This document shows, piece by piece, positions 1,278-27,370 of a stretch of DNA of 32,500 nucleotides. The translations under genes and the position numbers were made by a program. Source of the DNA: Elusimicrobiota bacterium (GTDB taxonomy: Bacteria > Elusimicrobiota > Elusimicrobia > UBA1565 > UBA9628). The notes beneath the pieces were generated by a model that saw nothing but the letters and a program-made list of their open reading frames with translations, ran no database searches and was not told the origin of the DNA. Numbering within the stretch: position 1 is the first letter of the stretch; every line of letters begins with the position of its first letter. The stretch covers positions 1 to 32,500 of the forward strand of contig JABEUV010000125.1 of NCBI GenBank assembly GCA_013044195.1, written 5' to 3'.

Positions 1278-1643
1278 TCAGCGGCCCAACGCCCGCGCCG
1301 CGTTCGTCCAGGGACCGACGTTGACGACCTCGCGAAACCCCAGGCGGCGCAGCGCTCCGGCCGCCAGCGCGCTGCGCGCGCCCGACGCGCAACAGACGAC
1401 GACCGGCTTGTCTGCGGCCAGCTCGCGGTGCCGCCGCTCCAGCTGAGACAGCGGGATGTTCACGCTGCCTCGGACGGCCCCGGACGCGAACTCTTCCGGG
1501 CCGCGCACGTCGACGACGACGGCGCCGCGCTTGATCAGTTCTGGCAGGCGGGCGGCGGCCGCGCGGAATTTAAAGAAGCGCCAGCCGAAATAGGCGGCGA
1601 GAAGGGCCGGGCCCAGCCAGCGCGACCAGGCGTCGGCGCTCAT
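1278..1643 (-). CDS. Membrane-anchored rhodanese-like sulfurtransferase
   Basis: 121 aa when started at the ATG at 1643; the track ORF extends upstream only as an open-frame artefact. Residues 8-24 form one hydrophobic segment (WLGPALLAAYFGWRFF) followed by basic residues, so the protein is probably anchored in the inner membrane with the rhodanese domain in the cytoplasm (positive-inside inference). The domain (about 35-121) contains VVDVRGPEEF and an active-site loop VCCASGARS, matching CxxGxR with catalytic Cys85. Rhodaneses carry sulfane sulfur as a cysteine persulfide between donors and acceptors. Its ATG overlaps the stop of the upstream methyltransferase (ATGA, 1640-1643), so the two are translationally coupled. 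It closes the tsdA-like sulfur operon, which fits a sulfane-sulfur role. Confidence 0.88.
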   Translation of the reverse strand: MSADAWSRWLGPALLAAYFGWRFFKFRAAAARLPELIKRGAVVVDVRGPEEFASGAVRGSVNIPLSQLERRHRELAADKPVVVCCASGARSALAAGALRRLGFREVVNVGPWTNAARALGR

Positions 1644-2257
1644 GAGGAGACGCCTTTGCGCGCCAGTACCTGGACCACCGCGCTGGAGCCGCCGTGGCCG
1701 CGGCCTTCTTGAACGTCGCGGTCGAGCTCGCGCCGTATTTCGAACGACAGTCCGTCCAGTTCCCGCCGCAGAGCCTCCGCCGTGGGCATTAGCGCGGGAT
1801 TCTGCGGCCCGCCGGCGCCGCGTCCGATCTGCGCCGGGCGATAGGCTTCCAAGATGAAAACGCCCCCGGGCTTGAGCCCGGCGACGCAGTCGCGGTGCAG
1901 GGTCCGGCGCAGTTCCTCGGGGACGTGGCACCAGATCGAAACGATCGCGTCCCAAAAGCCGGGCTCGATGCGGTAGTCCGCCAGGTCCGCGCGGACGGCC
2001 GCCGCCTTCACGCCGCGCTCCGCGGCCAGGCGCGCGAGCTTGTCCAGGCCGGCTTGGGAGCCGTCGACCGCGGTCACGTCCAGACCTTGTCGGGCCAGAT
2101 GCACGGCGTTGCGGCCTTCGCCTTCGGCCAGGCACAGGACGCGTCCGCCGGGGCGGATCGCCGCGGCGTGCTCACGCAAAAAATCGTTGGGTTCGACGCC
2201 GTAGTAATAGTCCGCGCCGCCGTAGCGTTCGTTCCAAGGGTCGACGGTTTTCGTCAC
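1640..2257 (-). CDS. Class I SAM-dependent methyltransferase
   Basis: 205 aa from a GTG at 2257, which I prefer to the track start because the longer form would run over 100 bases into the preceding gene. The protein begins VTKTVDPWNERYGG. The SAM-binding motif I is seen as VLCLAEGEGRNA (about residues 40-51), motif II acid as VTAVDGS, and the post-motif region as LKPGGVFILEAY. The WNERY...EPNDFL start and the GEGRNA loop are typical of small-molecule methyltransferases of the TehB/thiopurine-like type. The substrate cannot be read from sequence. Position between a periplasmic binding protein and a rhodanese suggests a thiol, sulfide or another chalcogen compound, but this is inference from context only. 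The stop overlaps the rhodanese ATG. Confidence 0.85.
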   Translation of the reverse strand: MTKTVDPWNERYGGADYYYGVEPNDFLREHAAAIRPGGRVLCLAEGEGRNAVHLARQGLDVTAVDGSQAGLDKLARLAAERGVKAAAVRADLADYRIEPGFWDAIVSIWCHVPEELRRTLHRDCVAGLKPGGVFILEAYRPAQIGRGAGGPQNPALMPTAEALRRELDGLSFEIRRELDRDVQEGRGHGGSSAVVQVLARKGVSS

Positions 2258-2297
2258 ATCTCTTGGATGCGCGGCGGCGCGAAAGGATTCAGAACGT

Positions 2298-3275
2298 TCA
2301 TCGAATCGGGCGCGGCTCCGATTCGTCCGACCGGGCGGGCACGAAGCCGTGGGCGGCGTAGGCGTCGCGCGCGGGGGCCGTTTCAAGGAAGCGCAAGAAC
2401 GCGCTTGCACCGGCGGCGTGACGCGCTCCCGTGATCGGCGTGATCAAGTAGGACACCTGGTCGCGCAGGCTGTCCTGAGGAGGCAGGTCCACGCCCGCGA
2501 TCGGCAGACCGTGCGCGGCGGCGTTGCGGATCTCCGTCTTCCACACCAGTCCCACGTCGGCGCGGCCGGCGGAAATGTCGGCGGGGATTTCGCGGTGATG
2601 TACCGCGGTAAAGTAGACGTGCGCGACCGGCCGGCAGGCGCGGCAGACCTGGCCTGCGGTCAGGTCCTTCCAGAGGCCGAGGCGCTCCAGCACCTTGCGC
2701 CCGTAGACGCTCATGATCCCCTCGTCGACGGGGTTGGGCAGTTCGACGCGCAGATCCGTGCGGCGCAGATCCTTCAGGCCATGCACGTCCTTCGGATTTC
2801 CGCGCGCCACCATCAGCGCCAGTTCGTTGTGCAGATAGACGCGGTAGTCGCTCGCCAGTCCCGCTTTTTTGAGCGCGCGCAGGTGTGCCAGGTCCACCGT
2901 CGCGTAGGCGTCCGGCCGCATCGGGTAGGACTTGCCCGCGTAGCGCCAGCCGCCTTTGAGAATCGCCTGCGCGATCAGGCCCGGAGGCAACGTGATCACG
3001 CCGATCGCGGCGGCCTTCGGATTTTCTTTTTGGAACGCGCGCAGCACGTCACCCATGGCGAAGTACTGGTTTCCGGCGACCCAGAGATCCAGGTCCACGC
3101 CGGACTGCATTCTCTCCAAGGCGGCCGGACCCGACAGCGTCCGGCCGCCGCTCAGGAAGACGCGCAGGTCCGAGTCGTGGCCGGCCGGAATCTGGACCAG
3201 CGCCGCGCGCGCCGAAATCGCCGCGCACAGCGCCAGCGCGGCCAGTGGGACGCAGCGGCGAAGTCCCGAGATCAT
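2298..3275 (-). CDS. Periplasmic substrate-binding protein, ModA/type 2 PBP-like
   Basis: 325 aa with a signal peptide (about residues 1-24, CVPLAALALCAAISARA). The body has type 2 periplasmic-binding-protein features seen in oxyanion binders such as ModA: VFLSGG and DLDLWVAGNQ near the start, LALMVARGNP, ELPNPVDEGIMSVYG in the middle and ISAGRADVGLVW late. A CxxC pair (CRAC, Cys211/Cys214) sits before AHVYFTAVHH and is unusual for a simple solute binder; it could be a redox or metal site. No ABC permease or ATPase gene is adjacent, so it may act as a periplasmic carrier rather than a transporter component. A strong TAAGGAG Shine-Dalgarno precedes the ATG and includes the stop codon of the DsrE gene (TAA), so the two genes are coupled. 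Ligand unknown; a sulfur oxyanion is plausible from context. Confidence 0.8.
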   Translation of the reverse strand: MISGLRRCVPLAALALCAAISARAALVQIPAGHDSDLRVFLSGGRTLSGPAALERMQSGVDLDLWVAGNQYFAMGDVLRAFQKENPKAAAIGVITLPPGLIAQAILKGGWRYAGKSYPMRPDAYATVDLAHLRALKKAGLASDYRVYLHNELALMVARGNPKDVHGLKDLRRTDLRVELPNPVDEGIMSVYGRKVLERLGLWKDLTAGQVCRACRPVAHVYFTAVHHREIPADISAGRADVGLVWKTEIRNAAAHGLPIAGVDLPPQDSLRDQVSYLITPITGARHAAGASAFLRFLETAPARDAYAAHGFVPARSDESEPRPIR

Positions 3276-3285
3276 GGCGTGCTCC

Positions 3286-3741
3286 TTAGGCCGACGGGTG
3301 TATGTAGGCCCAGCCGTCGCCCTGCCGGATCACCAGTTCCCCCATCGCCGAGGGCACGACATGGATGAACGGGTACAGCGTCGCGGGGTCGACCTTGAGT
3401 TCGTGCAAAGTGTTGTTGCACTGCGCAAGGATCGCGCCGCGGCCGGCCAGCGCCTTGAGGTCCTCTTCCAGACCGTTGCCCTGCTCATAGATCTTGTAGC
3501 CGCGGCTGTTGGCGATGAGCTCCACTTCGACGCGTCCCTTCAGCCTTGGGTCGTCGAACACGTTGCGCATGTTGTTGAGGGTCTTCTTGAACACGCCCGG
3601 CGCGTCCGTGTCCACGTGGAAGATCACGCGGTAGTGCTTGTGCTGGGGCTGGGCTCCATGGAAATCCGGCGCGGGCGCGGCGGCGGCGGCGGCGGAAACG
3701 GCCAAGGCCAAGGCGGCGGCCTTCAGGGTCTTTGCTTTCAT
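3286..3741 (-). CDS. Periplasmic DsrE-family protein
   Basis: 151 aa. Residues 1-22 are a signal peptide (MKAKTLKAAALALAVSAAAAA), so it acts in the periplasm, unlike cytoplasmic DsrE/TusD. The mature part has the DsrE/DsrF-like fold pattern: YRVIFHVDTDAPGVFKKTLNN at the start, VEVELIANSRGYKIY in the middle and the signature ILAQCNNTLHEL with Cys108 as the candidate sulfur-carrying cysteine. DsrE-family proteins bind sulfur as cysteine persulfides or organise sulfur transfer. AAAGGAGGACTCATG gives a strong ribosome site. It follows the TsdA-like cytochrome by 16 bases and precedes the binding protein by 10, which is a tight operon. Family is convincing; precise partner is not known. Confidence 0.87.
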   Translation of the reverse strand: MKAKTLKAAALALAVSAAAAAAPAPDFHGAQPQHKHYRVIFHVDTDAPGVFKKTLNNMRNVFDDPRLKGRVEVELIANSRGYKIYEQGNGLEEDLKALAGRGAILAQCNNTLHELKVDPATLYPFIHVVPSAMGELVIRQGDGWAYIHPSA

Positions 3742-3757
3742 GAGTCCTCCTTTGTCT

Positions 3758-4522
3758 TTAGTAGCGCGCGTCCTCGGGTTTTCCGCCTTTCGGCCAGTCT
3801 TGGGACTTCGCGGCGAAATCGGGGCGGGGCTGGGAGATCATGAACGCGGCGACGTCGCGCGCCTGCTGGTCGGTGAGGCTGCCTTCCGCGCCCTGCGGCA
3901 TGTTGAAGCGTATAAATTTTTCCGCGGGATGCAGGCGCGCCATCCCCGCGCCGATGTTGAACGAGTCGCCGCCCCACACCGGGGGCACTTCCACATAGGG
4001 GTCGTCGTCCAGGTCGCGCTTCCCGGCGCCGTCCTTGCGGTGGCATTGAGCGCAGCGGGCGGCGTAGAGCGCGGCGCCGGCGCGGACGTTCGGCGGTCCG
4101 GCTTTCAGGGGAGCCGCGGCGACGCGCGGCCCGGCGCTGGAAATCGAGACGATATAGGCGAGGATGTCGTGCATCGCCGGAGAATCGGGGGGCAAGGCCT
4201 TGCCGTTGAGGCTGCGCTTGAAGCATTCGTCCACGCGGTCGGCCAAGGTGACCACGCGCCCTTCACGCGCCCGGTACTTCGGAAAGGCGGACGCGGCGCC
4301 GGTCAAGGGCAGGGCCGACGCGCGGCGGCCGCCGTCCAGGTGGCAGTTCTCGCAGCTGAGCCGGGGGCCGGCGTAGGCGGGCTGTAGTATGCGCGTGCGC
4401 GTCAGAAGCGCCAGCCCGCGCTCGGCCGCTCGGCCGTCTTCGGCGTTCGCCCGCGCGGCCAACATGCCCATAATCATTAGGAGCGCGACGGTGCGCGACG
4501 GTCGAAAGCCGGGGGTGGTCAT
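3758..4522 (-). CDS. tsdA: Dihaem cytochrome c, TsdA-like thiosulfate dehydrogenase
   Basis: 254 aa from the ATG at 4522 (MTTPGFRPSR); this keeps a normal signal peptide (VALLMIMGMLAARANA), while the track start adds 19 residues. Two haem c sites are visible: CENCH (57-61) and CAQCH (157-161). Between them lies PKYRAREGRVVTLADRV followed by ECFKRSLNGKALPPDSP, the pattern of TsdA/SoxXA-like haem domain 1, where the cysteine of the CF-RS-NG motif (here Cys100) is an unusual haem ligand in TsdA. In domain 2 FIRFNMPQG (Met208) matches the TsdA haem 2 methionine ligand. TsdA oxidises thiosulfate to tetrathionate, or the reverse, in the periplasm. It leads a five-gene sulfur operon and diverges from a LysR regulator. 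TATAAT lies 6 bases before the ATG, suggesting a leaderless mRNA. A haem c enzyme with other substrates remains possible. Confidence 0.82.
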   Translation of the reverse strand: MTTPGFRPSRTVALLMIMGMLAARANAEDGRAAERGLALLTRTRILQPAYAGPRLSCENCHLDGGRRASALPLTGAASAFPKYRAREGRVVTLADRVDECFKRSLNGKALPPDSPAMHDILAYIVSISSAGPRVAAAPLKAGPPNVRAGAALYAARCAQCHRKDGAGKRDLDDDPYVEVPPVWGGDSFNIGAGMARLHPAEKFIRFNMPQGAEGSLTDQQARDVAAFMISQPRPDFAAKSQDWPKGGKPEDARY

Positions 4523-4528
4523 AAGCTT

Positions 4529-4552
4529 ATTATAGCGGCGAGAAAATATAAT
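4529..4552. promoter_or_regulatory. Back-to-back -10 elements and palindrome between tsdA and lysR
   Basis: A perfect interrupted palindrome ATTATA-N12-TATAAT. Read on the minus strand, the left arm is TATAAT 6 bases before the tsdA ATG. Read on the plus strand, the right arm is TATAAT 38 bases before the lysR ATG. The same symmetry resembles an AT-rich LysR-type operator, so regulator binding would cover both promoters. The 68-base spacer is strikingly AT-rich in a 70% GC neighbourhood. Promoter and operator roles are inference from sequence alone. Confidence 0.5.
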
Positions 4553-4590
4553 CGCTAGTAATGTTTTTTTATAACGCATAAAATAAATTT

Positions 4591-5505
4591 ATGAACGCGC
4601 GGCGCTTTCCATTCGACCCGGGGCTTCTCGAGGCGCTTCTCGCCGCCGCGCAGACGGGGCGAGTCACGGCGGCCGCGCGCGAGTTGAACCTGACCCAGCC
4701 CGCGGTGACGGCGCGCCTGCGCCGTCTGGAACGCGCCGTGGGCGCGCCGTTGCTGGCGCGTTCGGCGCGCGGCGTGACCTTGACCCCGGCCGGTCGCGAA
4801 TTGTGCGAGCGCGCGCGGAAGATCCAGGCGCTTTTGGAAGAAGGCGCGGCCGCCGTCGCGGGCGCTCCGTCCCCGACGGGACGCTTGGCCTTGGCCGCGA
4901 GCACGACCATCGCCTCCTACGTCCTGCCGCCGCTCTTGGCGCGCTTCCGCGCCGCCTACCCGCGCATCGCGCTGTCGCTGTCGGTCGGCAATACGGAGGA
5001 GGTGCTTGAGCGGGTTCGCAGCGGCATCGCGCCGCTTGGACTTGTCGAGGGTCACGGCCGCGCTCCGGCGGTGCGTCTGGAGCCGTTTTTGGAGGACGAG
5101 ATCGTCGCGGTGCGCTCTCCGCGCTCGGCCGTCGCGGTGCGCGGGCCCGCCGACCTGGCGCGCCAGACCTTGCTCTGGCGCGAGCGTGGATCCGGCACGC
5201 GCGCCGTCGTCGAGAGGGCGCTCGGCCACGCCGGCGGGCGCCGTCGCGGCTCCGCCGGCGACGTGGAACTCGGCGGCACCGAAGCGATCAAGTCCGCGGC
5301 GGCCGCGGGCCTGGGCGTGGGCTTCGTCTCGCGCTGGGCGCTCCAGGGCGACGCCGCGGGACGCCTGGCGATTCTGTTGGTTCCCGGGCTGTCGATCCGG
5401 CGCGTGTTCCGCTGGGTCCTTCCGGCCGCGGCGCTGTCGGGGACCGCGGCGGTATTCCGCGACTTCGCGCGCGCGCATCCGCCCGCGCTGAATACCGGCG
5501 TCTAG
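4591..5505 (+). CDS. LysR-family transcriptional regulator (CysL/CysB-like)
   Basis: 304 aa. The N-terminal winged helix-turn-helix is clear at about residues 10-68 (LLEALLAAAQTGRVTAAARELNLTQPAVTARLRRLE, then GAPLLARSARGVTLTPAG). The effector-binding half (about 92-295) contains LALAASTTIASYVLPPLLARF, RERGSGTR and GVGFVSRWAL. The RE-GSGTR motif is common in CysL/CbbR-like members that sense small anions or sulfur and carbon metabolites. It is divergent from the TsdA-like operon across a 68-base AT-rich spacer, the usual arrangement for a LysR regulator and its target. Its stop codon overlaps that of the convergent osmC-like gene. No Shine-Dalgarno sequence is evident before the ATG. Control of the sulfur operon is inferred from position. 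Confidence 0.9.
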   Translation: MNARRFPFDPGLLEALLAAAQTGRVTAAARELNLTQPAVTARLRRLERAVGAPLLARSARGVTLTPAGRELCERARKIQALLEEGAAAVAGAPSPTGRLALAASTTIASYVLPPLLARFRAAYPRIALSLSVGNTEEVLERVRSGIAPLGLVEGHGRAPAVRLEPFLEDEIVAVRSPRSAVAVRGPADLARQTLLWRERGSGTRAVVERALGHAGGRRRGSAGDVELGGTEAIKSAAAAGLGVGFVSRWALQGDAAGRLAILLVPGLSIRRVFRWVLPAAALSGTAAVFRDFARAHPPALNTGV

Positions 5506-5897
5506 CCGGGCTCGGCGACGATCTCGAAGTCGGGCGGGGCTTGCATGTGCTTCTTGACCGTGCACAGCGCCGCGGCCGCCGCCACGCTGTCGCGGTATTT
5601 CTCCGGGAAATCCTTGGGCAGGCGGATGCGTAGAACGACCTTGGACACGCGGTGCGCGGCCTCGTCCCAGACGGCGGTCTGGGTCAGTTCCAGGCCCTCG
5701 GTCGGCAGGCCGCGCTTGCGGCAGAAGCTGAGCGCGAACAGTCCCGCGCAGGTGCCCAGCGAGGCCAGGAACAGCTCGAAGGGCGACGGAGCGGAGCCGT
5801 CGCCGCCGGCGTCGACGGGTTGGTCGGTCGCGACGGTGAAGCCTCCGAACTCGGCCGAAACTTTCTTGTTGCCGGGGAAGCGGATGGTCATTTCCAT
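5502..5897 (-). CDS. OsmC/Ohr-family peroxidase-like protein
   Basis: 131 aa. The OsmC fold signature is complete: SPFELFLASLGTCAG with Cys50, followed 62 residues later by AALCTVKKHM with Cys112. These two cysteines are the peroxidatic/resolving pair in OsmC and Ohr, which reduce organic hydroperoxides in the cytoplasm; the closest subgroup by eye is the YhfA-like OsmC proteins. AAAGGAAAT lies about 8 bases before the ATG at 5897. The gene starts 5 bases after the stop of the anti-sigma gene, so it is the third gene of the sigma/anti-sigma operon and a likely output of that circuit. Its TAG stop overlaps the TAG stop of lysR in the palindrome CTAG. Confidence 0.9.
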   Translation of the reverse strand: MEMTIRFPGNKKVSAEFGGFTVATDQPVDAGGDGSAPSPFELFLASLGTCAGLFALSFCRKRGLPTEGLELTQTAVWDEAAHRVSKVVLRIRLPKDFPEKYRDSVAAAAALCTVKKHMQAPPDFEIVAEPG

Positions 5898-5902
5898 AAG
5901 GG

Positions 5903-6208
5903 CTATTTCCTTTTCGCGGCCGGGCCGCGGCGCAGAGCCGTCAGCAGGGAGCGTCGCGCGGCGGCGGGGGGCCGGACGCCGCGCTTGAGGCCGCGAAGCG
6001 CCGCGACCGTGCGCTCCAGGCTTTCAAGCACGCGCGCGCAGGGCAGGCAGGATTTCCGGTGGGCGGCCACGACGCGTCTCTGCGCGGCGGGAAGCTCCCC
6101 ATCCAGATAGTCGCACAGCAGAGCGACGCGGCGCCGACAGGACAGCCGTTCCATGTCCATGCTCTTTTTGAGATGCGCGGGGGAGCGGAAGGGTTCGCGA
6201 GACGTCAT
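5903..6208 (-). CDS. Soluble zinc-finger anti-sigma factor (zf-HC2, ZAS type)
   Basis: 101 aa from the ATG at 6208, which overlaps the sigma factor stop (ATGA, 6205-6208); the 226-aa track ORF is an upstream open-frame extension. Residues 25-60 (RRRVALLCDYLDGELPAAQRRVVAAH, then RKSCLPCARVLE) give the ZAS motif H50-x3-C54-x2-C57, with Cys24 or Cys32 as the further zinc ligand. There is no transmembrane segment; the tail is short and basic (RRSLLTALRRGPAAKRK). Soluble ZAS proteins, such as RsrA, can sense oxidants by losing zinc and releasing their ECF sigma. Coupling to the sigma gene and to an OsmC peroxidase favours a thiol or peroxide stress switch, though redox sensing is inferred. Confidence 0.86.
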   Translation of the reverse strand: MTSREPFRSPAHLKKSMDMERLSCRRRVALLCDYLDGELPAAQRRVVAAHRKSCLPCARVLESLERTVAALRGLKRGVRPPAAARRSLLTALRRGPAAKRK

Positions 6209-6795
6209 GAGGACTGAGAGGCGAAGGCCTTCTCCAACTCGGCGCGCAGAAACAGCCGGCCGCGGTGGAGGCGCGATTTCAGCGCGGGCACGCTGAGCTT
6301 TAGAATCTTGGCGGCCTGGGCGGCGGGCAGCTGTTCGACGTCGCGCAGAGTCACGACGAGGCGATACTCCACGGGCAGGCGCGAGAGCGCCGCGGCGACC
6401 GCGGCCGAGAGCTCCTTCTTGCCGGCGGCTTCCTCGGGGGTCGGCTCCCCATCGGCGACGTGATGGGCGGGTCCCTCGCCGTGGTCGTGACCGTGAGGGC
6501 GGTCGAGGAGGGCGACGAAGGGCTCGCGCTTGCGGCGGCGGTGGCGCATGAAGCACAGGTTCGAGGCGATGCGGTACAGCCACGTGCTTAATTCGGAGTC
6601 CTCGCGGAAGCTCTTGAGCTTGCGAAACGCCGTCAGGAAGGTTTCCTGATAGACGTCGTCGGCCTCGGCGGGCATGGACGAGCAGACGCTGCGGACCAGG
6701 CGGTAGATTCGGTCTTCGTGGCGGCGCACGAGCTGGGCGAACGCGTCCGCGTCCCCGGCCCGGCTGCGCGCGATCAACTCATTTTCCCCGGTCAT
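6205..6795 (-). CDS. ECF-type RNA polymerase sigma factor
   Basis: 196 aa. Sigma region 2 spans about residues 20-90 (AFAQLVRRHEDRIYRLV, DDVYQETFLTAFRKLKSF, STWLYRIASNLCFMRHRRRKR). Region 4 spans about 130-185 (ALSRLPVEYRLVVTLRDVEQL, then AKILKLSVPALKSRLHRGR). The linker carries a histidine-rich stretch, HGHDHGEGPAHH (101-112), which is not a normal part of the family and could bind metal. The gene is first in the operon with the anti-sigma and osmC-like genes. TAGAAT lies 9 bases before the ATG and no Shine-Dalgarno sequence is visible, so translation may be leaderless. It is transcribed divergently from the DUF2892-cydAB unit. Confidence 0.92.
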   Translation of the reverse strand: MTGENELIARSRAGDADAFAQLVRRHEDRIYRLVRSVCSSMPAEADDVYQETFLTAFRKLKSFREDSELSTWLYRIASNLCFMRHRRRKREPFVALLDRPHGHDHGEGPAHHVADGEPTPEEAAGKKELSAAVAAALSRLPVEYRLVVTLRDVEQLPAAQAAKILKLSVPALKSRLHRGRLFLRAELEKAFASQSS

Positions 6796-6804
6796 CTGAA
6801 GAGG

Positions 6805-6810
6805 ATTCTA
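6805..6810 (-). promoter_or_regulatory. -10-like TAGAAT before ECF sigma gene
   Basis: TAGAAT (within TATATAGAAT) ends 9 bases before the ATG at 6795. It is one of eight such hexamers 6-9 bases from a start codon in this window. No convincing -35 element is visible. Confidence 0.4.
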
Positions 6811-6908
6811 TATAATCGCCGAAGGGGAGAACCCTTTCCTTGTCGGCGGCATCCTAAAATATCACGGGCGATACGGCGCAAGTCCGTCGGTTGATTCGAG
6901 GAGACGAT

Positions 6909-7118
6909 ATGACCAAAAACATTCATCCGTGGGAGCGCGGCGTGCGCGTGGTCGCGGGGGCGTTTCTGATGAGCCTGGCCTTCTGGGGGCCGAAGAGCTA
7001 CTGGTTCCTGATCGGCGTGGTGCCTCTGCTGACCGGCCTGCTTGGTTGGTGCCCGCCGTACGCGCTGTTCGGCATCAACACTTGCCGTCTGGGTTCCGGC
7101 AAGAACGTCGCAAAGTAG
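6909..7118 (+). CDS. Small membrane protein, DUF2892 (YgaP-like) type
   Basis: 69 aa from the ATG at 6909; the track start (TTG, 6891) is less likely because GAGGAG lies 5 bases before this ATG. The protein starts MTKNIHPWERGVRVVAG and has two hydrophobic segments (about 14-30 and 33-53) ending in CPPYALFGINTC. The start (I-P-ERG-R---G) and the two-helix hairpin followed by the CP-Y-L-GI-TC motif match the DUF2892 inner-membrane domain, found alone or fused to rhodanese as in YgaP. It lies 24 bases upstream of cydA on the same strand and is probably co-transcribed. Role unknown; a link to sulfur or respiratory functions is contextual. Confidence 0.85.
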   Translation: MTKNIHPWERGVRVVAGAFLMSLAFWGPKSYWFLIGVVPLLTGLLGWCPPYALFGINTCRLGSGKNVAK

Positions 7119-7142
7119 ACGTTAGGAGTCGGGAGGACCGGC

Positions 7143-8564
7143 ATGGATGTCGTCACGCTGTCGCGCCTTCAGTTCGCGCTGACGGCGATGTTCCATTACT
7201 TGTTCCCGCCGCTGTCCATCGGCCTGGGCGCGTTGCTCGTCTTGATGGAAGGCGCCTACCTGCGCACCGGGGACAAGGACTGGGAGAGGCTGGCCCGTTT
7301 CTGGACCAAAGTCTTCGCCGTGAACTTCGCGGTCGGCGTGGCCACGGGCATCGTGATGGAATTCCAGTTCGGCACGAACTGGTCGACGTACTCGCGCTTC
7401 GTCGGCGACGTGTTCGGCTCCGCGCTGGCCGCCGAGGGGATCTTCGCCTTTTTCCTGGAGTCTGGTTTTTTGGCGGTACTGGTCTTCGGCTGGGACCGCG
7501 TGTCCAAGGAGATGCATTTCACCGCGACCACGTTGGTCGCCCTCGGCGCGACGTTCTCGGCGGTGTGGATCGTCGTGGCCAACTCCTGGCAGCAGACGCC
7601 GGCCGGTTACGCATTGGTCGCGCACGGCGGGGTCGTGCGCGCGGAGATCACGGATTTCTGGGCGATGGTCTTCAATCCGTCCAGCGTGGAGCGTCTGGTC
7701 CATGTTCTGCTGGGCGCCTACGCGCTGGGCGGGGCGTTCGTGGCCAGCGTCTCGGCCTTCTACGTCCTGCGCGGCCGCCATGGCGCGCTGGCGCGCAAGT
7801 CGCTGACGCTTGCGGTGCTGTTTTCCGCCGCCGCGTGCTTGGCTCTGCCGCTGTCGGGCGACACTCAGGCGCGCACGGTCGCGCGCACCCAGCCGGCCAA
7901 GCTGGCGGCGTTCGAGGGACTCTATAAAACGTCGGCGCACGCGCCGCTGTCCTTGATCGGACTGCCCGACGACGCGCGCCAGGAGACGCGATTTTCCGTC
8001 GCCGTGCCGGGCCTGCTGAGCTTTTTGGTTCACGGCCGCGCCGACGCGGCCGTGACCGGCCTGGATGCCTTCCCGGCTCGGGATCGTCCGCCCGTGGCCG
8101 CGTCCTTCTTTCTTTACCACGGGATGGTGGGCGCGGGCATGCTCCTGGCCGCGCTGTTCGCGGCGGCGGCGTGGCGTCTGCGCGGCGGCCGCCTGTTCGG
8201 CGACCGCCGCCTTCTTCGGGCGCTCGTCTTCGGCGTCGCCGTTGCTTTCGCGGCCAATCAGTTGGGCTGGGTCGCGGCCGAGGTCGGCCGCCAGCCGTGG
8301 ATCGTCTACGGGCTTCTGCGCACGAAGGACGCGGTCTCGCGTTCCGTGCCCGCAGCCTACGTCGCCGCCTCCATCGCGATGTTTTCCGTGATTTATGCGC
8401 TGTTGTTCGCGGTCTGGGTGACGGTGCTCAACGACAAGATCGCTCATGGCCCCGACGAGGGTCCGCAGCCCGCGCATGAGCCGGGCGGGTGGCTGGGCGC
8501 TGCGGGCGAGTTGGCCGATCCGGGCGGCGCGTCCTTGACCCAGGCCAAGGAGGACGAGCGATGA
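7143..8564 (+). CDS. cydA: Cytochrome bd ubiquinol oxidase subunit I
   Basis: 473 aa, a multi-pass inner-membrane protein. Conserved haem and quinol elements are visible: [22 protein letters not shown] with His18, MEFQFGTNW (72-80), a helix with Glu98 and Glu106 (the conserved acidic pair for the haem b595/d pocket), [19 protein letters not shown] with His187 (haem b558 ligand), and [20 protein letters not shown], the CydA signature. It is shorter than the E. coli protein (522 aa), consistent with a short Q-loop as in many bd-type and cyanide-insensitive oxidases. The enzyme oxidises quinol and reduces oxygen to water with high oxygen affinity. GGGAGGA gives a good ribosome site. The stop overlaps cydB (ATGA at 8561). 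Confidence 0.97.
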
Positions 8565-9577
8565 ACCTGCGCGTCGTGTGGTTCGTTCTTCTCGGCGTCC
8601 TGCTGGCGGGCTACGCGATCCTGGACGGCTTCGACCTGGGCGTGGGCATACTGCACCTCGGCGCGCGCGACGACCGCGAGCGGCGGATCTTCATGAACTC
8701 CATCGGACCGTTGTGGGACGGCAACGAGGTGTGGCTGGTGACCTTCGGCGGCGCGCTGTTCGCGGCGTTCCCGGACGCCTACGCCACCGCGTTCTCCGCG
8801 TTCTATCTGGCCTTCATGCTTCTGTTGTGCGCGCTGATCTTTCGGGCCGTGTCCATGGAGTTCCGCGGCAAGCGCGAGTCCGCGGCTTGGCGGCGCGCGT
8901 GGGATTTTGCGTTCTTCGCGGCCAGCCTGACCGCGGCCCTGCTCTTCGGCGTGGCCGTAGGCGACTCGATGCTGGGCATCCCGATCCGCGCCGACCATGA
9001 GTTCTCGGGCGGCTTGCTCGATCTGCTGCGCCCGTACGCGTTGCTGGTCGGCGCGCTGAACGTCTCGCTGTTCGCGCTGCATGGGGCGCTTTATCTCCAC
9101 CTCAAGACGGAAGGCGGGCTTCAGCGCCGCGTGCGCCGCTGGATGTGGCATGCGTTCGGCGTGTTTTTGACGTTGTATCTGCTCACGACCATCGTCACGT
9201 TGATCCGCGTGCCGCGGGCGGTCGTGAACTTCGAGCGCATGCCGTGGCTGTGGGGGATCGTCGCGGCCAACGTGCTGGCGCTGGCGAACATCCCGCGCGC
9301 GATGTTCCTGCGCCGTCCCGGCCAGGCGTTCGCCTCTTCGGCCGTGGCGATCGCGGCGCTGGTCGCGCTGTTCGGCGCGGCGCTGTATCCCAACCTGATC
9401 GTCTCAAGCCTGGATCCCGCCTGGAGTCTGACGCTCGAGAGTGCGGCGTCGTCGAACAAGACCCTTGGGATCATGGCCTTCATCGCCGGTCTGGGCCTGC
9501 CGTTCGTGCTGGCTTATACCGGGATCGTGTATTGGGTGTTCCGCGGCAAGGTGGAGCTCGGCAAGTTCAGCTACTGA
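8561..9577 (+). CDS. cydB: Cytochrome bd ubiquinol oxidase subunit II
   Basis: 338 aa from the ATG at 8561 ([11 protein letters not shown]); the track start 24 codons earlier is inside cydA. The signature regions are YAILDGFDLGVGILHL, IGPLWDGNEVWLVTFGGALFAAFPDAYA, and the late SLTLESAASSNKTLGIM followed by LPFVLAYTGIVYWVFRGKV. These are diagnostic of CydB, which forms the membrane heterodimer with CydA and stabilises the haems. The 4-base overlap with cydA ensures coupled synthesis. No cydX or cydDC assembly genes are seen in the window. Confidence 0.97.
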   Translation: MNLRVVWFVLLGVLLAGYAILDGFDLGVGILHLGARDDRERRIFMNSIGPLWDGNEVWLVTFGGALFAAFPDAYATAFSAFYLAFMLLLCALIFRAVSMEFRGKRESAAWRRAWDFAFFAASLTAALLFGVAVGDSMLGIPIRADHEFSGGLLDLLRPYALLVGALNVSLFALHGALYLHLKTEGGLQRRVRRWMWHAFGVFLTLYLLTTIVTLIRVPRAVVNFERMPWLWGIVAANVLALANIPRAMFLRRPGQAFASSAVAIAALVALFGAALYPNLIVSSLDPAWSLTLESAASSNKTLGIMAFIAGLGLPFVLAYTGIVYWVFRGKVELGKFSY

Positions 9578-20642: not shown

Positions 20643-21320
20643 ATGAAAAAGCAAATGAAAGTGGTCGTCTTGCTGTCCGGCGGCCTGGACTCGACCACGG
20701 CGTTGTATTGGGCGAAAGCGCGCGGCTATGCGCCGGTCGCGCTGGCGATCCGCTATGGCCAGCGTCATATAAAAGAACTCTCGGCCGCGCGCGCGGTCGC
20801 GCGGCGCGCGGGGGTGCCGCTGCACGAGGTCGCGCTATCCCTGCCGTGGCTCGGCGTCTCCTCGCTGACGAACAAAACGCTGAAGCTTCCGGACATTCCG
20901 CTTTCGAAGATCGGGCGCGGCGGCATTCCCTCCACGTATGTGCCGGGACGCAACACCATGTTCCTGGCGTTGGCGGCGTCTTTGGCCGACGCCACCGGAG
21001 CGGGAGCCATCGTGATCGGGGCCAATGCGCTCGACTACTCGGGCTATCCGGACTGTCGGCCATCGTTTTTAAACGCCTTCTCGAAAGTCGCCAAGCTCGG
21101 CACGCGCGTGGGCGCGGAGGGCGGGACGCTGAAGGTGCTGGCGCCGCTCCTGCGGCTGGATAAAAAAGGCATCGTGCGCCTGGCGCGGCGCGTGGGCGCG
21201 CCGCTGGAGCTGACCTGGTCCTGCTACGCGGGCGGCGCGCGGCCGTGCGGCGCGTGCGACTCCTGCCGCCTGCGCGCCAAGGGCTTTCGCGAGGCCGGAA
21301 CGGAGGATCCCGCGCTGTGA
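20643..21320 (+). CDS. queC: 7-cyano-7-deazaguanine synthase
   Basis: 225 aa. The PP-loop ATP site is VVVLLSGGLDSTTALYWA (7-24). Other QueC signatures are AIRYGQRHIKEL, YVPGRNTMFLALAAS, IGANALDYSGYPDCRPSF and the four-cysteine zinc site Cys194, Cys202, Cys205, Cys208 (SCYAGGARPCGACDSC). QueC converts 7-carboxy-7-deazaguanine to preQ0 with ATP and ammonia, on the route to queuosine in tRNA (or to 7-deazaguanine DNA modifications). CGGAG is only 2 bases before the first ATG, so Met5 at 20655 is an alternative start. It is coupled to queE (GTGA overlap). queD and queF are not in the window. Confidence 0.96.
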   Translation: MKKQMKVVVLLSGGLDSTTALYWAKARGYAPVALAIRYGQRHIKELSAARAVARRAGVPLHEVALSLPWLGVSSLTNKTLKLPDIPLSKIGRGGIPSTYVPGRNTMFLALAASLADATGAGAIVIGANALDYSGYPDCRPSFLNAFSKVAKLGTRVGAEGGTLKVLAPLLRLDKKGIVRLARRVGAPLELTWSCYAGGARPCGACDSCRLRAKGFREAGTEDPAL

Positions 21321-22036
21321 ACGCGTCCGCGCTCAAGCTGTCGGAGGCGGCGCGCGCGCGCGTCGTCGAGGTTTTCTCGTCCTTGCAGGGGGAGGGCGCC
21401 TACGTCGGCGAGCGGCAGATCTTCGTGCGCCTGGGCGGCTGCAACCTGCACTGCGACTACTGCGACGAGCCGGACACGATCGCCATCCCCTCGGGAACGG
21501 TCTGGTCGGCCGAGCGCGTGAAGAAGGCGATCATTTTCCTAACGACACAGAGGACTCATCGTTCTGTTTCATGGACGGGGGGCGAGCCGCTGCTGCACCC
21601 GGCGTTCCTGAAGTCGATGATGGCGTGGGCGCGGACGCGCGGGTTGAAGAATTACCTGGAGACCAACGGCACCTTGCCCAACGCCCTGCGCGCGCTTGCG
21701 CCGCTGTGCGACGTGGTGGCCATGGACGTCAAACTGCCCTCGGCGACCGGACGGGAAACGTGGAAGGCGCATCGCGAGTTTCTGTCCGTCGCGCCGCGCG
21801 GCACGTTCGTCAAGGTCGTGCTCACCGCGCGCTCGACCGAGGCCGAGTGGCGGCGGGTGCTGGCGCTGATGCACGCGGCGCCGCGGGTGCCGCTGGTGCT
21901 TCAGCCCGCCACGCCCGGCTTCGGCGCCGACGCGATCTCGCCCGCGCGCTGTCTCTCGTTTGAAACGCGCGCGCGCCGCGTCCTGCGCGACGTGCGCGTC
22001 GTGCCGCAGTGGCACCACCTGTGGAAGGTGCGTTGA
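21317..22036 (+). CDS. queE: 7-carboxy-7-deazaguanine synthase (radical SAM)
   Basis: 239 aa from the GTG at 21317, which overlaps the queC stop (GTGA). FSSLQGEGAYVGERQIFVR is the QueE lead-in, followed by the radical SAM cluster motif GCNLHCDYCD with Cys42, Cys46 and Cys49 (CxxxCxxC), then WTGGEPLLHP and YLETNGTLP. QueE contracts the ring of 6-carboxytetrahydropterin to 7-carboxy-7-deazaguanine, the step before QueC. The C-terminal VVPQWHHLWKVR is also family-typical. The gene is followed by a TTGA overlap into a GT-C membrane protein, placing the que pair inside the glycan operon. Confidence 0.96.
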   Translation: MNASALKLSEAARARVVEVFSSLQGEGAYVGERQIFVRLGGCNLHCDYCDEPDTIAIPSGTVWSAERVKKAIIFLTTQRTHRSVSWTGGEPLLHPAFLKSMMAWARTRGLKNYLETNGTLPNALRALAPLCDVVAMDVKLPSATGRETWKAHREFLSVAPRGTFVKVVLTARSTEAEWRRVLALMHAAPRVPLVLQPATPGFGADAISPARCLSFETRARRVLRDVRVVPQWHHLWKVR

Positions 22037-26341: not shown

Positions 26342-27084
26342 TGTCCGGCAAGATCGCGCTGGAAGCGCGCGGGCTGGGCAAGAAATTCACCATCGGCGCG
26401 CGCGAGGAGCGGCGCACGGTCATGGAGGCCGTCGCCCGGACTTTGACCGGCAGCGCGCCGCGGCGCGACCTTTGGGCGGTGCGCGGGCTGGACCTGACGG
26501 TCGAGCGCGGCGAGATATTGGGCGTGATCGGCGAAAACGGCGCGGGCAAGAGCACTTTGCTTCTTCTGCTGTCCCGCATTCTTGGGCCGTCGGAAGGGAC
26601 GCTACGCGTGTTCGGAAAGACCGATCCGTTTTTTCAGCTGGCGGCGGGACTGCGCCCGCGCCTGAGCGTGCGCGACAACATGGCGCTCTGCGCGGCTCTG
26701 CTCGGCCTGTCCCGGGCGGACTTCCAGCGTCGGCGCGAGGAGATCGTCGCCTTCTCGGAGTTGGGCGAATACCTTGAAGCGCGTCTGGGTGAGTTGTCGA
26801 CGGGGCTGGCCGCGCGCCTGCCGTTCGCGGCGGCCATTCACGCCGATCTGGACATTATTCTTGTCGATGAGATGCTGTCCGTGGGGGATTTAAAGTTCAA
26901 GGCCAAGTGCTTCAAGGCGTTCCGATCCTTGGCCGCCCAGGGCAAGACGATCGTGGTCGTCTCCCACGATCTGGACTCGGTGCGCGCCCTGTGCGCTCGC
27001 TCGCTGTACCTGCGCGGCGGCCGCGCGGAATTCCTGGGCGAGACCGGCGAGGCGATCGAGCGGCTTAAGACCGCGGCTCGATGA
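26341..27084 (+). CDS. ABC polysaccharide exporter ATP-binding protein (Wzt-like)
   Basis: 247 aa from the ATG at 26341; the track form begins inside the permease gene. Walker A GENGAGKST (64-72), signature ELSTGLAARL (151-160, the degenerate form usual in Wzt/TagH/KpsT), Walker B DIILVDE (171-177), D-loop SVGD, and H-loop VVVSHD (His209). DLWAVRGLDLTVERGEILG before Walker A is also typical of the group. The chain stops after the nucleotide-binding domain, lacking the C-terminal carbohydrate-binding domain that some Wzt proteins use to recognise capped O-antigen, so export should not depend on a terminal cap. The gene overlaps the convergent pqqD-like gene by 20 bases at the 3' ends. Confidence 0.94.
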   Translation: MSGKIALEARGLGKKFTIGAREERRTVMEAVARTLTGSAPRRDLWAVRGLDLTVERGEILGVIGENGAGKSTLLLLLSRILGPSEGTLRVFGKTDPFFQLAAGLRPRLSVRDNMALCAALLGLSRADFQRRREEIVAFSELGEYLEARLGELSTGLAARLPFAAAIHADLDIILVDEMLSVGDLKFKAKCFKAFRSLAAQGKTIVVVSHDLDSVRALCARSLYLRGGRAEFLGETGEAIERLKTAAR

Positions 27085-27370
27085 GCCCGTCTTTGCTCAA
27101 CTGAGCGACGATCGCCACGACGTCGCCTTCGATCTTTGCGGGCGTTTCGTCGAACTCTGAACTCAACTTCTCGGCGACGGCCGCGACGGACAGCCCCGCA
27201 TTGAGCCCTTCCCAGACGGCGCGCGCGGTCTCGTTGAGCGAGTAGTAGGCGCTGCTGCGCAGATCCAGGACGACGCCCTCGTCTTCGATACGCCGGAAGG
27301 CCGTGTGAGCCGCGCGCTTGAATCTTTGCTCAGCCGAATCTTTTTTCTGCACGGGACGTAAAGTTAGCAA
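27065..27370 (-). CDS. PqqD-family peptide chaperone-like protein
   Basis: 101 aa if started at TTG 27370; GTG at 27352 is equally possible and neither has a good ribosome site. The core FRRIEDEGVVLDLRSSAYYSLNETARAVWEGLNAG followed by VAEKLSSEFDETPAKIEGDVVAIVAQLSKDGLIE is the PqqD/RRE-like winged helix: three strands, then the helices with conserved LN--A--VW. PqqD proteins bind RiPP precursor peptides and deliver them to radical SAM or other modifying enzymes. No precursor or SPASM-type partner is seen nearby; the only radical SAM gene (queE) is 5 kb away and unrelated in role. Similar orphan PqqD genes are known from polysaccharide clusters. Partner unknown. Confidence 0.85.
   Translation of the reverse strand: MLTLRPVQKKDSAEQRFKRAAHTAFRRIEDEGVVLDLRSSAYYSLNETARAVWEGLNAGLSVAAVAEKLSSEFDETPAKIEGDVVAIVAQLSKDGLIEPRS

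Follow-up and report, generated by a model that had tools for sequence, protein, structure and literature searches.

The window analysed here comes from an Elusimicrobiota MAG of 92% completeness, where it makes up the initial 32.5 kb of contig C41 (40.6 kb), and contains five successive minus-strand genes encoding an exported dihaem cytochrome c of the TsdA type (thiosulfate dehydrogenase/tetrathionate reductase; 3758-4522), a secreted DsrE-like protein (3286-3741), an orphan periplasmic substrate-binding protein (SBP; 2298-3275), a cytoplasmic class I SAM methyltransferase of the Slr1183 type with a GTG start (1640-2257), and a single-domain rhodanese (1278-1643). The original prediction gave the distances between these genes as 16, 10, 40 and -4 bases, all of which are exact, the last being a 4-base ATGA overlap in which the rhodanese start lies inside the methyltransferase stop. 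Four of the five products score above the curated cut-off of a Pfam family (SoxA-TsdA_cyt-c, 46.7 bits; SBP_bac_11, PF13531, 120.3 bits; Methyltransf_25, 52.6 bits; Rhodanese, PF00581, 59.0 bits), and inspection by eye places signal peptides on the cytochrome, the DsrE-like protein and the SBP, and one N-terminal membrane anchor on the rhodanese.

Downstream of the rhodanese by 74 bases, also on the minus strand, lies a TolC-family outer membrane efflux protein (about 1-1204; TIGR01844, 63.5 bits) that is cut by the contig end. The closest relative (L023) has the order rhodanese-TolC-RND with an identical 74-base gap, and TolC is probably a continuation of the five-gene transcription unit, with the RND pump following in relatives. 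On the other side, a LysR regulator (4591-5505, plus strand) diverges from tsdA; by score it is of the YeiE/CbbR/selenium-metabolism type, with all of these scores below cut-off, and its orthologues adjoin the cytochrome, DsrE and SBP genes in four relatives (L023, L025, L027, L150). The 68-base gap between tsdA and lysR (4523-4590) is AT-rich; the palindrome ATAAATTTAT lies where lysR begins, and a TATAAT stands 7-12 bases ahead of the tsdA ATG. The operon is further adjoined, over 5502-9577, by genes for an OsmC-like protein (5502-5897, minus strand; PF02566, 61.3 bits), a zf-HC2 anti-sigma factor (5903-6208, minus) and an ECF sigma factor (6205-6795, minus), both from domain searches, and, from the gene listing, a small DUF2892-like membrane protein (6909-7118, plus) and the cytochrome bd oxidase genes cydA (7143-8564, plus) and cydB (8561-9577, plus).

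The identity of the cytochrome is consistent across several lines of evidence. Its best PDB match is TsdA of Allochromatium vinosum (AvTsdA; 4wqc, 166.7 bits), with SoxA (1h31) reaching just 24.8 bits, and it has two CxxCH haem sites (CENCH 57-61 and CAQCH 157-161). Cys100 and Met208, which had been singled out as special ligands, are present and align with the AvTsdA haem ligands (Cys on haem 1, Met on haem 2). AvTsdA uses Cys123, Arg109, Arg119 and Ser127 (precursor numbering), of which the two arginines and the serine contact thiosulfate (PMC4423706); in an alignment without gaps in that stretch, these correspond to Cys100, Arg86, Arg96 and Ser104 of the window protein, and all four are retained in every Elusimicrobiota relative examined. 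A maximum-likelihood tree separates SoxA by a branch with 100/100 support and places the window cytochrome together with AvTsdA and MpTsdBA (from Marichromatium purpuratum); in that part of the tree the branching order has little resolution, and three outgroup cytochromes on long branches are loosely attached there. With ligands, active-site residues and phylogeny all in agreement with the earlier assignment, we regard the window cytochrome as a genuine TsdA with predicted TsdA activity. It shares with the TsdA proteins of A. vinosum and Campylobacter jejuni, and with TsdBA, the dihaem c architecture, the Cys ligand on haem 1, the Met ligand on haem 2 and an active site of two Arg (or Lys/Arg) plus Ser, and it groups with both TsdA and TsdBA references in the tree; it differs in being partnered by a secreted DsrE plus an SBP, whereas in TsdBA the partner is TsdB.

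The DsrE-like protein itself scores 17.8 bits against the DsrE Pfam model, under the cut-off of 22.7, while its homologues in the alignment exceed that cut-off, and a PDB sequence search recovers the DsrE fold of MTH1491 (1l1s, E=8.6e-16). Its sole cysteine, Cys108, is invariant in 23 of 23 aligned sequences and is the putative conserved sulfur-binding cysteine of the DsrE/YchN family. A precedent for such a role comes from Metallosphaera, in which DsrE3A reacts with tetrathionate but not with thiosulfate, forming a Cys-S-thiosulfonate that is handed on (PMC4175335). The dsrE3A-dsrE2B-tusA clusters of sulfur oxidisers such as Metallosphaera cuprina resemble the window in linking a DsrE-fold sulfur carrier to tetrathionate chemistry, although the window protein is a secreted one with just one cysteine, and its partner is an SBP where the M. 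cuprina cluster has TusA.

For the SBP, a PDB search by sequence gave no match, and its fold was instead assigned from an AlphaFold (AF2) model (pLDDT 93.7), which Foldseek identifies as a type II periplasmic binding protein, with ModA-type proteins first (4kd5, TMt 0.86) and a sulfate-binding protein further down the list. The window protein has the fold and the SBP_bac_11 domain of the ModA/sulfate-binding family; it differs in its own conserved loop motifs, in a CxxC insertion and in the gene neighbourhood, as no ABC permease or ATPase genes adjoin it in the window. All 42 close homologues have the motifs GNQ, TLPPG, PNPxxEG and HHRE (226-229 in the window protein) together with the CxxC, whereas distant homologues keep GN-[QY]-F, T[LI]PPG, PNPxxEG and HHR[EQ] but lack the CxxC along with the short insertion that contains it, including those that lie beside TsdA-like and DsrE-like genes in Bacteroidota. 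The CxxC noted in the original prediction does exist (C211-C214), but as a clade-specific insertion, perhaps a disulfide, that is unlikely to be core chemistry, and we rejected it as a general redox or sulfur site of the family. Since the motifs are kept where the CxxC is lost, the ligand pocket is the likely common function.

We assessed how widely these genes recur by searching 295 genomes of the phylum and scanning approximately 85,000 species genomes more broadly. Within the phylum, seven relatives of the window genome, which belong to a single family, have the SBP (53-74% identity), and in six of the seven TsdA, DsrE and SBP genes stand in the same order, the seventh locus being interrupted by a contig end. 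In total this trio occupies 11 loci: seven in Elusimicrobiota (counting the window), one in an unclassified MAG (L070), and three on Bacteroidota plasmids (two Hymenobacter, one Spirosoma) on which cytochrome, DsrE and SBP again follow in order. The wider scan returned 45 SBP loci, mostly from Betaproteobacteria and Alphaproteobacteria. In 21 of these 45, mostly in Proteobacteria, a DsrE gene is found no more than 1 kb from the SBP, and extending the flanks to up to 7 kb brings the number with any DsrE to 22, indicating that the association is local rather than background; approximately half of the SBP loci have no DsrE nearby, and several have no sulfur gene at all in the flank examined. The sulfur-oxidation context that had been proposed for the two proteins is supported, with SBP genes beside sox genes (L052, L057, L059, L062; SoxB 855, SoxY 167 and SoxC 634 bits), TauE (L058, L061, L069) or a TsuA-like transporter (L065), and distant SBPs beside DoxD in Gluconobacter and beside TsdA-like cytochromes in Bosea, Methylobacterium, Paraburkholderia and Burkholderia. 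Matches to the TsdA model in L052, L057 and L062 were left out of the trio count, as the SoxA and SoxD cytochromes there could cross-match.

The five-gene set does not recur as a unit in the same way. It had been put forward as a single operon, but synteny recovers it only in the window and, with SQR inserted, in one congener (G161, in the order LysR-TsdA-DsrE-SBP-SQR-methyltransferase-rhodanese-TolC-RND), and we therefore rejected the idea that the five genes are conserved as a system in exactly this form; what is conserved is the trio and, separately, the methyltransferase-rhodanese pair. The pair is absent from the trio loci of genus g2, and in the congener G261 (L144) the METHYLTRANSFERASE and rhodanese pair, with its 4-base overlap, stands alone. 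Relatives that lack the trio at this position carry the sigma factor, anti-sigma factor, SQR, TolC and RND genes, with a DUF2892-like gene in two and cydAB in one (L145, L147). The anti-sigma and sigma genes of the window are kept in L145, L146 and L147, and cydAB adjoins this scaffold in L145. The window retains the sigma factor, anti-sigma factor, cydAB and TolC, and the trio and methyltransferase-rhodanese genes occupy the place of SQR. The island is thus composed of two modules, LysR-TsdA-DsrE-SBP and methyltransferase-rhodanese, on an older scaffold of ECF sigma/anti-sigma, SQR, TolC-RND and cytochrome bd genes, which in congeners is possibly a sulfide-stress regulon.

We consider it moderately probable that the locus is an island for handling sulfur compounds in which two modules have been co-opted together, covering periplasmic thiosulfate/tetrathionate interconversion, handling of the product by DsrE and SBP, and clearance of sulfane sulfur or sulfide by the methyltransferase and rhodanese. 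The mechanism of TsdA proceeds via a Cys-S-thiosulfonate (PMC4423706), and in the periplasm the window enzyme would interconvert two thiosulfates and one tetrathionate through this intermediate at Cys100 on haem 1, while haem 2 would exchange electrons with the respiratory chain. By analogy with DsrE3A of M. cuprina, tetrathionate or a different reactive product could donate a thiosulfonate or sulfane group to Cys108 of DsrE, and the SBP, with no adjoining permease gene, may either capture a sulfur oxyanion or act with DsrE as a carrier. At the inner membrane and in the cytoplasm, the membrane-anchored rhodanese and the co-translated methyltransferase would handle sulfane sulfur or sulfide, the latter enzyme perhaps S-methylating sulfide or a small thiol; as a relevant activity, the rhodanese PspE makes sulfane sulfur from thiosulfate (PMC10215317). 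Given that relatives carry SQR at the ECF-sigma/RND/cytochrome-bd locus into which the set has been inserted, its most likely role in the cell is to tolerate reduced sulfur compounds and to use them as auxiliary substrates.

The rest of the genome (92% complete) was searched for further components. There is no SQR orthologue, DoxD or DsrA in it and no SoxB above cut-off (best score 284 bits against a cut-off of 550), in accord with the earlier remark that neither sox nor dsrAB genes are in view; TusA is present only below cut-off, while haem-copper oxidases number two and YeeE/YedE is represented by two half-size genes that form a pair. The Sox pathway (judged by SoxB) and the reverse Dsr pathway (judged by DsrA) are thus not supported, and as a candidate tetrathionate-forming enzyme of an S4-intermediate pathway the genome has TsdA but no DoxD. 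With an SQR orthologue, DoxD and a SoxB above cut-off all missing, no complete pathway can be reconstructed. The 284-bit match is a 5'-nucleotidase-like protein on another contig (L178:1-1630; G000:C73), possibly a SoxB-like enzyme similar to those in the Bacteroidota islands.

It is also possible, though in our judgement rather unlikely, that the two modules are merely adjacent and functionally unrelated, the trio performing thiosulfate chemistry and the methyltransferase and rhodanese serving with TolC-RND in general detoxification of metalloids, thiols or xenobiotics. Such a separation would fit the solitary pair in G261, the trio loci of genus g2 that are without it, and weak TehB-like matches. 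The rhodanese has a recognisable domain, PDB matches and, by eye, an active-site Cys in a CxxxxR loop (CASGAR), and the methyltransferase is similar over its whole length to Slr1183 (2kw5/3mer; 190.9 bits, residues 7-200). To our knowledge, the Slr1183 family has a solved structure and no assigned function, and papers naming Slr1183 do not treat its function in their titles or abstracts. What argues against a separation of the modules is that on Hymenobacter and Runella plasmids the methyltransferase family accompanies a TsdA-like cytochrome, DsrE, TauE, YeeE and MBL or rhodanese. Other plasmids place it beside a rhodanese (Enterobacter), cydAB (Paracoccus), TauE/TusA/DsrE/rhodanese (Sporosarcina, Cytobacillus) or rhodanese/FAD oxidoreductase/RND (Asticcacaulis), in favour of the sulfur-handling island; 2 of the 10 methyltransferase neighbourhoods viewed (Sphingopyxis, Aulosira) are without a clear sulfur link, which counts against it. 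Plasmid sulfide-detoxification islands (SQR, rhodanese/PDO, TauE, YeeE) share with the window a rhodanese, a Slr1183-type methyltransferase and RND or cytochrome bd neighbours, but have SQR and PDO, neither of which is in view in the window. Three Bacteroidota plasmid sulfur islands (L159:807-7375, L162:1063-12579, L169:705-8170) contain TauE, MBL or rhodanese, YeeE, a Slr1183-type methyltransferase, a TsdA-like cytochrome, an OprD porin and DsrE, and two of them also a 5'-nucleotidase-type protein. Adjacency of SBP and methyltransferase genes in two betaproteobacteria (L050, which was scanned, and L073) was discounted, the methyltransferases there being different or unverified.

The direction of the TsdA reaction bears on a further alternative, tetrathionate respiration, in which TsdA would act mainly as a tetrathionate reductase, DsrE and SBP would supply or sense tetrathionate, and the other genes would guard against the reduced sulfur that results. 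The TsdA of C. jejuni works as a tetrathionate reductase in vivo and has K252-x-N254-M255 at haem 2, where A. vinosum TsdA has K208-M209 (PMC5146829). The corresponding environment in the window protein, R205-x-N207-M208, is nearer to the former, with Asn rather than Lys ahead of the haem-2 Met, so that the reaction could run in the tetrathionate-reducing direction. However, the Asn-Met motif is weakly diagnostic, occurring also in MpTsdBA and in most of the TsdA-like sequences compared, and sequence thus does not give the direction; SBP-DsrE homologues moreover adjoin oxidative sox genes and terminal oxidases, and we consider a primarily respiratory role distinctly unlikely. A role for the SBP in binding molybdate or tungstate for a molybdoenzyme, incidental to TsdA, is highly improbable: ModA proteins are its best fold matches, but it scores 22.5 bits against the TIGR01256 modA equivalog cut-off of 62.5, its family has motifs of its own, and its neighbourhood lacks ABC genes and is linked to DsrE, TsdA, sox and DoxD.

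Returning to the reading as a two-module island for sulfur-compound handling, the most interesting element is the DsrE-SBP pair that recurs as a partner of TsdA and of Sox, for which we found no description in the literature searched; nor did literature searches on Slr1183, on Elusimicrobiota with TsdA and on DsrE and SBP with thiosulfate turn up the trio. The onward passage of sulfane sulfur or tetrathionate beyond the first periplasmic step has yet to be settled; according to a 2024 study of SoxT (PMC11582611), the remaining sulfur enters the cytoplasm ‘by unknown means’. The trio points to an undescribed step of sulfur handling outside the inner membrane, and its secreted DsrE and orphan SBP, which accompany TsdA or Sox across no fewer than three bacterial phyla, offer concrete candidates that can be expressed. 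A more speculative extension, which we think unlikely in its full form, would have DsrE and SBP carry tetrathionate-derived sulfur as a general periplasmic pair, a missing component found with TsdA in some phyla and with Sox in others, with the co-located methyltransferase a dedicated sulfide or persulfide methylase. The locus also makes a genomic case for thiosulfate/tetrathionate metabolism in Elusimicrobiota, a little-known phylum, and the Slr1183 methyltransferase family is now placed in sulfur-handling neighbourhoods.

Several further features were observed in passing. At five of the SBP loci (L038:4821-5531, L043:4975-5685, L055:4912-5571, L050 and L073) an anti-sigma factor gene adjoins an ECF sigma gene and diverges from DsrE-SBP. 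The L038 protein combines an N-terminal zf-HC2 domain with a C-terminal DsrE domain, both scored, and the other four are its homologues, which suggests a sulfur-responsive anti-sigma factor. Elsewhere in the window, tandem QueC-like and QueE-like genes (20643-22036) and a small PqqD-like protein (27065-27352), which adjoins a pair of genes for an ABC-2 type polysaccharide exporter, were recognised by eye.
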